Shown here: piece by piece, positions 9,270 to 13,900 of the stretch
How the letters are laid out: every line of letters starts with the position of its first letter
How positions within the stretch are numbered: position 1 is the first letter of the stretch
Assembly: GCF_004376845.1 (NCBI RefSeq)
Contig: NZ_SNUW01000002.1
Coordinates: 1 to 64,000 of the forward strand
Source of the DNA: Psychromonas algarum
GTDB taxonomy: Bacteria; Pseudomonadota; Gammaproteobacteria; Enterobacterales; Psychromonadaceae
Length of the DNA stretch: 64,000 nt
Reading direction: 5' to 3'
Notes under the pieces: model-generated
What the model was told of the DNA's origin: nothing
Databases searched by the model: none
The model's input: the letters and a program-made list of their open reading frames with translations, nothing else
Program-made: the position numbers and the translations under genes

Positions 9270-11114
9270 ATGGCGCAAACACCTCAATCACAGCTTAAAG
9301 AGCTGATCATTAAAGGTAAAGAAAATGGTTTCTTAACCTTCGCAGAAGTGAATGACCACCTTCCGCAAGATATCGTTGAATCAGAACAAATTGAAGATAT
9401 CATTCAAATGATAAATGATATGGGGATACGTGTTGTTGAAACTGCACCTGATGCTGACGATCTTATCCTATCTGGTACAGACAATGATGAACCTGATGAA
9501 GACGCAGTAGAAGCGGCAGCGCAAGTATTAGCAACCGTTGAATCAGAGATCGGTCGCACAACTGACCCTGTACGTATGTATATGCGTGAAATGGGTACAG
9601 TAGAGCTACTAACGCGTGAAGGCGAGATTGTTATCGCTAAACGTATCGAAGAAGGCATCAAAGAAGTACAAAATTCAGTATCTGAATATCCAGCGACTAT
9701 TCGTAACTTATTAGATAATTACGATAGCTATGAAGCAGAAGAATTAAAATTAACAGACTTAATCAGTGGTTTTATCGATCCTAATGACGATATGACGCAA
9801 GCCGTCAGCGCAACTAACATCGGTTCAGAACTATCAGAAAAAGAATTAGAAGATGACGATGAAGATGCTGAAGACGTAGAAGAAGAGGAAGAAGGCCCTA
9901 AAGGCCCTTGTCCTGAAGAAGCTGCTGAAAAGTTTGCTGAATTACGTCGTTTAAATAACATCGTTGAAAAATCAATTACTAAAAATGGTCGTAAACACGC
10001 AGATACACTTTCTGCAATTGACGAACAAGCTGAATATTTCCAACAGTTTAAACTTATTCCAAAACAATTTGATCGTATGGTTAAATTGATCCGTGGCAAC
10101 ATGAGCGCGGCACGTGTACAAGAGCGTTTAATCTTAAAAATCTGTGTTGAACAATGCAAAATGCCTAAAGCTGAATTTATTAAGCTATTTAAAGGTAATG
10201 AAACTAACAGCGCATGGTTAGAAAAATTATTATCAGGCAACGAACCTTATGTAGCAGGCATTAAAGAAGCAACGGAAGATCTAGAGCGTTGTATTCGTAA
10301 AATGTTAGCAATTGAAGTGGAAAGTGCACTAACAATTACTAATCTAAAAGAAATCTCTCGTGCAATGAGTATTGGTGAAACCAAAGCTCGTCGAGCAAAA
10401 AAAGAGATGGTTGAAGCTAACTTACGTCTTGTAATATCAATTGCTAAAAAATACACCAACCGTGGTTTACAGTTCTTAGATTTAATCCAAGAAGGTAATA
10501 TAGGTCTAATGAAAGCCGTTGATAAATTTGAATACCGTCGCGGTTACAAATTCTCAACTTACGCAACATGGTGGATCCGTCAAGCAATTACACGTTCAAT
10601 CGCTGACCAAGCACGTACAATTCGCATCCCCGTACACATGATTGAAACGATTAATAAACTTAACCGTATCTCTCGTCAAATGCTACAAGAAATGGGGCGT
10701 GAGCCTCAGCCAGAAGAGCTAGCTGAACGCATGATGATGCCAGAAGATAAAATTCGTAAGGTATTAAAAATTGCTAAAGAGCCAATTTCAATGGAAACAC
10801 CAATCGGTGATGATGAAGATTCGCACTTAGGTGATTTCATTGAAGATACAACGATTGCACTGCCAGTTGATAGCGCAACAAGTGAAAGCCTTAAAAATGC
10901 AACAAATGATGTATTAGAAGGCCTAACTGCTCGTGAAGCGAAAGTACTGCGCATGCGTTTTGGTATTGATATGAATACAGACCATACCCTAGAAGAAGTG
11001 GGTAAGCAGTTTGACGTGACACGTGAGCGTATTCGTCAAATCGAAGCTAAAGCATTACGTAAACTACGTCATCCAAGCCGTAGTGAGCAACTACGAAGCT
11101 TCTTAGATGAATAG
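9270..11114 (+). CDS. rpoD: RNA polymerase sigma factor RpoD (sigma-70)
   Basis: Primary sigma factor. 614 residues from the ATG used here, next to 613 in E. coli; another ATG nine bases upstream is less well spaced from GGA. Region 1.1 is at the N-terminus, followed by region 1.2 ([20 protein letters not shown]). A very acidic stretch (about residues 193-208) precedes the non-conserved region. Region 2 holds [20 protein letters not shown] and [20 protein letters not shown]. Region 4.2 holds [20 protein letters not shown]. The last 65 bp before the stop are repeated downstream at 11199-11263. Confidence 0.98.
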
Positions 11115-11150: not shown

Positions 11151-11198
11151 GTTTAAACACTTCGAACTGCACCTCACAGAAAACGTGAACGTGCAACT

Positions 11199-11263
11199 GA
11201 AGCTAAAGCATTACGTAAACTACGTCATCCAAGCCGTAGTGAGCAACTACGAAGCTTCTTAGA
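11199..11263 (+). repeat. Duplicated 3' end of rpoD (pseudogene fragment)
   Basis: These 65 bases are identical to 11043-11107 inside rpoD, 156 bp away and beyond the rpoD terminator. The copy encodes the last residues of sigma region 4.2 (ending [10 protein letters not shown], then TAA) instead of [10 protein letters not shown]. Upstream of 11199 only patchy similarity to rpoD remains, and no start codon or ribosome site is seen. It looks like a recombination or duplication scar, not a gene. Confidence 0.93.
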
Positions 11264-11621: not shown

Positions 11622-11681
11622 ATGGATCATGATTTAACTAGATTAATTACATCGACATCTAACACCATTCCGCTTAATTAG
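11622..11681 (+). pseudogene. Possible truncated 5' end of an unknown gene
   Basis: A strong ribosome site (AAAGGAG) precedes an ATG that opens only 19 codons (MDHDLTRLITSTS, then five more) before TAG. The frame stops exactly where the IS630 fragment on the other strand begins. This suggests a gene start cut off by an insertion or deletion. I do not recognise the peptide. Confidence 0.35.
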
Positions 11682-12004
11682 TTGATCAGACTCATCCAAT
11701 CTATAGTGCCTGTTTTCTTTACTCTTTTAACATCACTTACAAACTCATTCCAAGCAATACAGATGGCATTAACAATATCTTCGTAACCGTTAAAACACCG
11801 ATTCGCTAAATGATACTGACGTAGCCAGCTCCACACTTGCTCTATTGCATTTAGCTCTGGTGAATAGGGAGGAAGTTTAATACAACTCAAGTTATTAAAG
11901 TCAGTGTCAATATCTTCTGTATGCCATCCAGCTCCATCCATAATGACAACTGCATGTCGACCTTCAACTGTACTTGTGGATATTTGTTCAAGATGTGCGT
12001 GCAT
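11678..12004 (-). mobile_element. IS630-family transposase, 3' fragment
   Basis: 108 residues matching the C-terminal half of an IS630/Tc1-type DDE transposase. The second catalytic block is VVIMDGAGWHTED and the third is LPPYSPELNAIEQVWSWLRQ. The N-terminal DNA-binding part and first Asp are absent, so it cannot act alone. No full inverted-repeat ends could be defined. It forms part of a degraded insertion region between the tRNA and the BNR gene. Confidence 0.85.
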
Positions 12005-12063
12005 AATATCTTTATGGTCTTAATGAATTAAATGAAAAGCCTCATTCTGGGAGGCCATCTCGA

Positions 12064-12267
12064 TTGACCCACGAACAATTAAGTCCGATTGAACAAGTAT
12101 GGAATTGGTTACGTCAGAATGAAGTAGCCAATCGTTGTTTTAAAGACTATAACGACATAGTTGATAAACATCTCGAATCTAATGTACCAAAACGACAGTG
12201 CCTTATAGAAAAAACAATCACTCCATTAAACAACTCGAAGATTAAGTATCCTACCTCTTTTTTTTAA
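12064..12267 (+). mobile_element. Second IS630-family transposase fragment, opposite orientation
   Basis: Only about 40 residues are recognisable (SPIEQVWNWLRQNEVANRC, then a DYNDIV-like stretch); the rest of the frame is unrelated. It matches the same C-terminal block as the fragment on the minus strand, with clear divergence, so the two come from different IS630 copies and not from one inverted duplication. It is non-functional. Confidence 0.7.
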
Positions 12268-12268
12268 G

Positions 12269-12317
12269 AAAAAGCCTCTAACAACTGAACTAACCGTTCA
12301 ATTATTAGAGGCTTTTT
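12269..12317. terminator. Bidirectional terminator downstream of the BNR gene
   Basis: 13-bp arms AAAAAGCCTCTAA/TTAGAGGCTTTTT around a loop that has its own small TGAAC/GTTCA hairpin. T runs lie on both strands. It would end the BNR-protein transcript on the minus strand. Confidence 0.85.
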
Positions 12318-12338
12318 ATTTATAATATTATGTCTCTA

Positions 12339-13706
12339 CTATTCTTTAATAATATAGGTATTGTATTTACCCGAAGTATCTCTTTCTTTCCAATCTGCTT
12401 GGAGCCCTAAAAATTTCACTTCTGGGTGGTAATTTTCTATCAAGCCTACTTTATTTAAGTTTTTAATTTGAGTATCTATAACATGATCTCTTGACCATGA
12501 AATGGCTCCATCAGTTGTTTTATAAGCAACAATTTTACCCCCTGACTTATGGTATGCAATGAAATCATTTACTCCAATTTTTTCAATATCCATTAAACTT
12601 GAGCCCTTTGTAATATTCACTACAGCCCATTCACTTCCTGTCCAACGTGCACTATTCAAGTATTTTTTACCACCCTTTTTATCTGCATATAATAAGACAG
12701 GTTTACCGTCGTCAGTATAAGAAGCTGCAAAATAATAATCGATAGCTTGTTTATTGTTGCTATCAAGTTCTCCACTATCAACAACAAGACAATGATTAAT
12801 TTCATGTTCATCGATACTACTTCCTAAATCAGTACCTGCGGCATCAGTCCAAGTGTCTGTTTCGGGGTAAAAATAAGCAAAATAAGCATTTTTATGATAC
12901 AGGTTATGCTTATTAATCGGTCCCCCACCTGCCATTGTCCAGCCTACTAAAAATCGCTCTGGAATTGCTCCGTGCGCAGGTTCATGACGAAAACCATCAT
13001 TGTAAACTTCATTCATATTAGAAGGCATCGCATCATGAGTATCAATTATTCGAACAGGCTCTGAAAATGTTAAACCATTATCCGTTGATTTAATCATTTC
13101 TAATGGGCGATAATCCGTTGGTGCACCTGTTGTATAACGATAAAAAATATAAATATCCCCGTTAGTTGCTTTATTAATTAAAGGGTAAGTTGCTTTGATG
13201 GGATCATCTCCATTTTTTATTTCTTGGTAATGAGTAGCGTCCCACCCTTCTACGGAGTTTTCTAAAGGAGAGGTAGATTTATACAGTCGACTATTATGAG
13301 CAGAATAAACAACCATTAATTTTCCATCATTTGTTTGTATCATTTTTGGATAATTATGATGATCTCTTTTTTGTTCTGACCAAGTATATTGTGAAAAATA
13401 AGTATCAGGTATTTGCCCAACTATTTTTGAATCAGACCAAAGATGAGTAGTATGATCATATTCTCGCACATATGTATTCATATTCTCACCAGCCCAAGTG
13501 ACCCATGTTTTATTAACCCTTTCATTATAAACGCCAAACCCGGTTCCTCTATCTGAGCTTAAATTATGATTAGATGCAATTTGAACAACTTGAGGATTTG
13601 ATGTTTCCTGTACAGGTATAGATAAACTCATGCTAGATTGCTTACTTGTTGTCGTACATGCAGTTAATAATGTAATAGACATAAAAGTCATCAGAACTAA
13701 TTTCAT
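12339..13706 (-). CDS. BNR-repeat (BNR_4-like) lipoprotein, candidate ulvan lyase (PL24/PL25 type)
   Basis: 455 residues from an ATG with AGAGG eight bases upstream; two ATGs further upstream have no ribosome site. A lipobox (LLTAC, Cys17) predicts an outer-membrane lipoprotein. The body looks like a BNR-type beta-propeller (motifs KSTDNGLTFSEPV and KTTDGAISWS). The propeller carries DHHNYPKM (His116, His117) and YSAHNSRLY (His137), the His pattern of the BNR_4 group that includes ulvan lyases of families PL24 and PL25. Tyr/Arg candidates (YRY at 189-191, Tyr199-Arg200) follow. The substrate is inferred, not shown; a sialidase-like or other polysaccharide-binding role is possible. There is no polysaccharide-utilisation cluster around it, and it lies beside IS fragments, which suggests acquisition. 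Confidence 0.7.
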   Translation of the reverse strand: MKLVLMTFMSITLLTACTTTSKQSSMSLSIPVQETSNPQVVQIASNHNLSSDRGTGFGVYNERVNKTWVTWAGENMNTYVREYDHTTHLWSDSKIVGQIPDTYFSQYTWSEQKRDHHNYPKMIQTNDGKLMVVYSAHNSRLYKSTSPLENSVEGWDATHYQEIKNGDDPIKATYPLINKATNGDIYIFYRYTTGAPTDYRPLEMIKSTDNGLTFSEPVRIIDTHDAMPSNMNEVYNDGFRHEPAHGAIPERFLVGWTMAGGGPINKHNLYHKNAYFAYFYPETDTWTDAAGTDLGSSIDEHEINHCLVVDSGELDSNNKQAIDYYFAASYTDDGKPVLLYADKKGGKKYLNSARWTGSEWAVVNITKGSSLMDIEKIGVNDFIAYHKSGGKIVAYKTTDGAISWSRDHVIDTQIKNLNKVGLIENYHPEVKFLGLQADWKERDTSGKYNTYIIKE

Positions 13707-13900
13707 TAATGGTGCCTCTATTTGCATCATGGCTAAAGTCTTAAAAATAGCACTGATTGTGAGAATACACTGCGAAGCAGTTAAATAAGTTTATGATAAA
13801 GCAACTTATTATTAATAAATTAGAGTTAGAAACACTAGTAAAATAGAGTATTTACTTTAAGCTAATACATTATTTAGTAAACAATAAAACAGGACAAGCC

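Follow-up and report, generated by a model that had tools for sequence, protein, structure and literature searches.

The window, by which we mean the whole 64,000-nucleotide stretch of Psychromonas algarum DNA analyzed here, carries a gene that an initial annotation, made from the sequence alone, described as an isolated BNR-propeller lipoprotein and a possible ulvan lyase. This raises the question of what the protein does and whether it merits that name. The coordinates proposed for the gene (12339..13706) proved exact, and the coding strand is the minus strand: on translation, the minus-strand frame from 13706 to 12339 is free of stops and encodes 455 amino acids, and stops interrupt the plus strand throughout. 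There is an alternative in-frame ATG at 13730. We placed the start at 13706 because a Shine-Dalgarno-like AGAGG (13715..13719, minus strand) lies 8 bases upstream of this position and the resulting protein has a clean lipobox, LTAC17 (residues 14 to 17; 13656..13667, minus strand). By the lipobox rule, this sequence suggests that the protein is anchored in a membrane, and as a lipid-anchored envelope protein it may be exposed at the cell surface. The protein contains an Asp-box (BNR) motif, STDNGLTF (residues 207 to 214; 13065..13088, minus strand), and a second Asp-box-like motif, TTDGAISW (residues 397 to 404; 12495..12518, minus strand). The two motifs singled out initially, DHHNY and SAHNS, are present at residues 115 to 119 and 135 to 139, and the second His of the pair, His117, lies exactly 20 residues from His137, as had been noted. 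Just past the stop codon is a 30+30-nt inverted repeat (12261..12325) that likely serves as a bidirectional terminator; it is absent from the list produced by a consensus terminator scan.

We then compared the protein with known families. Pfam assigned it to BNR_4 (PF15892) with an E value of 1.9e-17 and a score of 63.9 bits against a cutoff of 27.3, a match far beyond chance that bears out the BNR-type lipoprotein first described. BNR_2 scored below its own cutoff, and no NCBIfam model scored above its cutoff. In a single-sequence search of the PDB, the PL25 ulvan lyase 5uam (E 1.6e-10) and its variant 5uas (E 1.4e-9) were the top matches, and the remaining five of the seven rows had E values of 0.25 or worse. 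Close relatives of the protein are few. In one scan of 84,980 species genomes, the sole close relative came from an uncultured Paraglaciecola (L002:10001-11407, plus strand), 65% identical over the full length and identical in the pocket residues described below. Among 72,556 plasmid records there were nine matches, the strongest being a Haladaptatus protein with 34% identity. A profile built from these three sequences matched 5uam with an E value of 1e-18 over residues 66 to 385, and BACINT_00347 (E 0.0025) and BACCELL_00856 (E 0.006), both named members of GH145 in PMC8377490, weakly.

The distribution of the gene is correspondingly sparse. Among 41 relatives scanned, the window protein found a match in its own genome only, and across the genus a gene of this type is present in 1 genome out of 24. 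Five of 394 genomes of the order matched, the four besides its own at just 25 to 31% identity; in the family to which the Paraglaciecola relative belongs, 23 of 295 genomes matched, exceeding 85 bits only in the homologue's own genome; and 4 of 398 genomes of the phylum matched, the window's own genome alone exceeding 85 bits. Searches of viral contigs with the window protein, the three-row profile or a PL25 protein as the query returned no relatives, and no relative of the window protein was found in phage records. The best reading is that the gene is a patchily distributed orphan. The literature that we searched, whose coverage did not extend to CAZy or most subscription papers, yielded no paper describing the three-member clade and no activity data for any of its members.

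The surroundings of the gene agree with this isolation. Of the 53 window open reading frames of at least 120 amino acids, the ten others given to Pfam contained no match to a carbohydrate enzyme, and the initial annotation's description of the gene as isolated holds. The IS remnants that it placed next to the gene are also there: a 108-amino-acid DDE_3 fragment (11678..12004, minus strand; Pfam E 5.3e-15), which we take to be the remnant of an IS630-type transposase, is followed by a second, homologous fragment in the opposite orientation (~12019..12165, plus strand), recognized by eye in translation. Third-position GC is 0.215 in the lyase gene versus 0.231 to 0.319 in nine other window genes, which is low but not decisive as a sign of recent acquisition. 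Upstream of the neighboring DUF2750 gene, genus relatives align with the window only back to ~13802 (6 of 20 loci with a blastn match), and the up to 1.5 kb compared ahead of DUF2750 in the 20 relative loci contained nothing that matched rpoD. There is therefore probably a rearrangement junction between the lyase gene and DUF2750, at ~13802. The lyase gene may be of horizontal origin. A 74-nt copy (11190-11263) of the rpoD 3′ end (11034-11107), 95% identical to it, lies 156 bases downstream, before a tRNA-Met gene, and appears to be left over from a partial duplication of rpoD or from recombination.

To place the protein among the BNR_4 lyases, we built a tree from 54 BNR_4 sequences by maximum likelihood. 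The window, Paraglaciecola and Haladaptatus proteins grouped together at 100/99, and this clade joined a 34-row PL25 group at 99/95, the PL25 group without the clade standing at 84/99; the deep forks of the tree are unsure, several branches, including that of the Haladaptatus protein, being long. In profile-profile comparison, the three-member clade matched 30 PL25-type proteins with a probability of 99.86% (E 4e-31, 345 columns) and, in hhalign, PL42-like proteins with a probability of 97.4%; against eight PL24-type rows there was no significant match (probability 1.1%, E 0.047), and three unrelated control proteins from the Paraglaciecola locus (GH43, GH88 and a sulfatase) scored below 1%. 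The tree and the profile comparison together put the window protein nearest to PL25 yet, on these data, outside it. Its identity to PL25 proteins is ~25%, whereas the yardstick for membership in the family is roughly 40% or more. An AlphaFold2 model made from only two sequences, those of the window protein and its Paraglaciecola homologue, had a mean pLDDT of 34.5; the seven-bladed propeller is a putative fold, predicted from the collinear profile alignment.

With the characterized PL25 lyases (PLSV_3936, 5uam/5uas, and ULA-3), the window protein thus shares the BNR_4 domain and collinearity over 345 profile columns. It also shares the domain with PL42, formerly GH145 (FoRham1, 7esk, and BT3686-type proteins), and by eye its HN...HN and TYP motifs are closer to those of PL42 than to those of PL25; however, the PL42 match is weaker than the PL25 match and the protein falls outside the PL42-like group in the tree, so we rejected membership in PL42. 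PL24 (LOR_107, 6byp, and Uly1, 7czh) is a seven-bladed propeller family with a His/His/Tyr/Arg set, according to PMC8377490. Plain membership in PL24 was likewise rejected, on the profile probability and on the position of the protein outside the PL24 group in the tree; a PL24 gene does neighbor the Paraglaciecola relative. We also dropped the ulvan oligosaccharide dehydratase P29_PDnc as a candidate BNR_4 protein, as neither "propeller" nor "BNR" occurs in the text of PMC8511951.

We next aligned the window, Paraglaciecola and Haladaptatus proteins with 30 PL25-type proteins, among them ULA-3 (WP_129740764.1), a characterized PL25 lyase (PMC13193363), and took residue roles from PMC13193363, PMC8377490 and PMC11395424. 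All five pocket residues of PL25 have counterparts in the window protein, each encoded on the minus strand: His117 (13356..13358) aligns with the catalytic His123, His137 (13296..13298) with the second active-site histidine, His143, Tyr174 (13185..13187) with the catalytic Tyr188, Arg190 (13137..13139) with the neutralizer Arg204, and Tyr235 (13002..13004) with the substrate-binding Tyr246. The 20-residue spacing of the two histidines is common to both as well. None of the 30 PL25-type rows departs from these five PL25 residues, and neither does any of the three clade members. The initial annotation had held that a lack of any PL24- or PL25-type match, or of the catalytic Tyr and Arg, would refute it; the match to 5uam and both Tyr174 and Arg190 were found. 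Overall, the window protein keeps 34 of 87 PL25-invariant columns, all five pocket residues among them. The hypergeometric probability of keeping all five by chance is 0.0075, or 0.0022 for all three members, values that serve only as a guide because columns are treated as exchangeable.

Other hallmarks of PL25 are missing. Only one of the four zinc ligands is kept (His278, corresponding to His267); the columns of His208, His264 and Cys266 hold a gap, Leu253 and Gly255 in the window protein. The substrate-binding Asn122 is replaced by His116 and Lys125 by Tyr119, positions that vary within the 30 PL25-type rows to the extent of Ser at 122 in 8 and Arg at 125 in 1. In the review PMC11395424, zinc is reported to be necessary for the stability and activity of PL25, and His264 to be key for catalysis; in our alignment the window protein has no equivalent of His264. 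On these grounds, together with the ~25% identity and the separate, supported clade in the tree, we rejected plain membership in PL25.

The reading that we favor, with a probability of about 70%, is that the gene encodes a membrane-anchored BNR_4 propeller lyase that would act by β-elimination on a uronic-acid-containing poly- or oligosaccharide and belong to a small, uncharacterized clade beside PL25. On translation, profiles and tree, we therefore annotate 12339..13706 (minus strand) as a 455-amino-acid BNR_4 lipoprotein and a proposed uronate-cleaving polysaccharide lyase. As in PL25, Tyr174 and His117 would form the base/acid pair; the order of acid and base is borrowed from PL25, and assignments differ between families in the papers. 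Arg190 would neutralize the uronate carboxylate, and His137 and Tyr235 would line the pocket. The zinc site and the Asn122/Lys125 contacts of PL25 have disappeared from the clade or were never there, and its fine substrate specificity therefore probably differs from that of PL25. The predicted lyase chemistry is fairly secure, and we infer a lyase activity for the protein. Unsaturated uronates released by it could enter the existing uronate pathways of an alginate-degrading host.

We looked across the protein's own genome for enzymes that would fit a substrate, in a survey that covered BNR_4, PL7, heparinase II/III, GH88, RhaA and sulfatase-fold proteins. The profile search found one BNR_4 match in all. 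There were 10 PL7 domain matches, by position in about eight open frames, and five heparinase II/III-type matches, two of which are PL17-like and adjacent on one contig; the one of these that was compared with the PDB had PL17 7bjt as its best match. A third heparinase II/III-type match adjoins UxaC. The single GH88 protein most closely resembled unsaturated glucuronyl hydrolases, 3wiw among them. Rhamnose isomerase (RhaA) was absent from this genome, and of the 24 genus genomes 1 had it. Six sulfatase-fold matches fell in five open reading frames, none of which had the C-x-[PA]-x-R sulfatase motif that is present in the Paraglaciecola control sulfatase. The bacterium thus appears specialized on brown-algal alginate. 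Contigs C3, C12, C32, C33, C34, C38, C22 and C35 carry an alginate-lyase load that is heavy for a 3.07-Mb genome, together with the heparinase II/III-type genes other than the PL17-like pair that adjoin UxaC or an SSF transporter gene.

The neighborhood of the Paraglaciecola homologue is different, since that copy sits in a polysaccharide-utilization region whereas the window copy is an orphan. Its plus strand carries genes for a TonB-dependent receptor, a GH43 protein, an IS200-like fragment, a PL6, a DUF1961 protein and the lyase homologue, and its minus strand carries those for a sulfatase with CTPSR, a GH88/105 protein and a second BNR_4 protein. The latter is of the PL24 type (781 bits to Uly1, 7czh) and lies 3.9 kb from the lyase homologue. 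The best solved match of the GH88/105 protein was 4ce7, an unsaturated 3S-rhamnoglycuronyl hydrolase, and it shares 59% identity with the protein of the GH88 family encoded next to ULA-3 on the Alteromonas sp. 76-1 plasmid pAlt76. The PL6 protein (Chondroitinas_B) is closest to the alginate lyase AlyGC, and its gene is split over two overlapping frames (L002:7420-8788, plus strand), so that it must be a pseudogene or else misassembled. With both ulvan-type and alginate-type genes in the locus, the neighborhood points to both substrates at once. DUF1961 was considered as an ulvan marker and set aside, the Paraglaciecola DUF1961 and GH43 proteins being unmatched at an E value of 1e-6 in the part of the Alteromonas 76-1 plasmid compared. 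The Paraglaciecola relative's genome has 14 BNR_4 matches.

How far, then, does the name proposed initially hold? In its strict form, the protein would be a functional equivalent of PL25 that cuts GlcA/IdoA-Rha3S and was inherited from a Paraglaciecola-like ulvan locus. PL25 is indeed the nearest characterized and solved family, the catalytic set is conserved and the 65% relative lies close to the PL24 gene and an ulvan-type GH105. These points favor the claim; the step to the assignment itself is weaker, given the replaced Asn122 and Lys125, the zinc site reduced to one ligand of four, the position outside PL25 and the lack of a PL24 profile match. The protein's own genome, rich in alginate lyases, has no visible ulvan locus, with neither RhaA, nor a motif-bearing sulfatase (0 of 5), nor another BNR_4 protein. 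The Paraglaciecola homologue lies on the strand opposite the ulvan-type genes and behind the alginate-type PL6, and the Haladaptatus plasmid stretch has no sulfatase or GH88 by name among 11 features in an incomplete gene table. A true ulvan lyase is therefore a doubtful reading. An accessory lyase that cuts alginate or a different uronate polymer of brown algae would suit a genome with so many PL7, PL17-like and heparinase II/III matches, and AlyGC-like PL6 is among the same-strand upstream genes in Paraglaciecola. That PL6 is split over two frames, however, and ulvan-type genes are equally near the lyase homologue; the window gene is not adjacent to its own genome's alginate-lyase matches, and we know of no alginate lyase of the BNR_4 fold. 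We hold this reading to be less probable still.

The absent zinc site, the transposase remnants beside an orphan gene and its presence in a single genus genome would also suit a protein that only binds, or an inactive relic, in which the pocket of the BNR_4 propeller survives without catalysis and the gene is being lost from the genome. As Bacteroides GH145/PL42 members illustrate (PMC8377490), a BNR_4 protein can retain lyase-like residues and yet display no lyase activity, a point that also weighs against the lyase reading favored above. The binding or relic reading is nonetheless unlikely, because the 455-amino-acid frame, its start, lipobox and terminator-like repeat are all in place, and because the five pocket residues are kept in all three members despite the modest number of PL25-invariant columns that the window protein retains. 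A sialidase-like glycoside hydrolase, as the name BNR suggests, would account for the Asp boxes and for the weak matches that the PDB search gave to sialidases and to proteins with BNR/Asp boxes (9db6 at E 0.0071, the rest at E values of at least 0.035). We rejected it as very improbable, since those matches are short and confined to the surroundings of the Asp box (residues ~180 to 231), whereas the PL25 match spans residues 66 to 385, and the lyase pocket residues are kept.

We thus return to a lyase of a clade beside PL25. Its substrate could be ulvan or a similar GlcA-rhamnan, or with equal likelihood something other than an ulvan-like or brown-algal uronan, each short of an even chance; alginate or another brown-algal uronan is somewhat less likely than either. 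That the three proteins found a new, zinc-independent BNR_4 lyase family beside PL25, with a nonulvan substrate and spread over marine gammaproteobacteria and haloarchaea, is a tentative suggestion. The gene is a real but divergent relative of PL25, over-named as an ulvan lyase: with several PL25 hallmark residues missing, the name is premature, and the His/Tyr/Arg set is insufficient for naming a BNR_4 protein an ulvan lyase, as relatives in PL24, PL25 and PL42 share it and differ in their substrates. If active, the protein would be a lyase outside the characterized ulvan lyases, with a PL25-type active site working without the zinc site reported to be needed for PL25 stability.

Two minor observations concern other BNR_4 genes. 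The alignment of the Haladaptatus protein (L004:7761-9062) ends at about residues 375 to 385 and is followed by a Pro/Arg/Ser-rich C terminus, which suggests a frameshift in that record. Another genome of the genus (G023:C11:102531-110798) encodes a BNR_4 protein that is larger than this one and distinct from it, with a weak GH88 match ~8 kb away.
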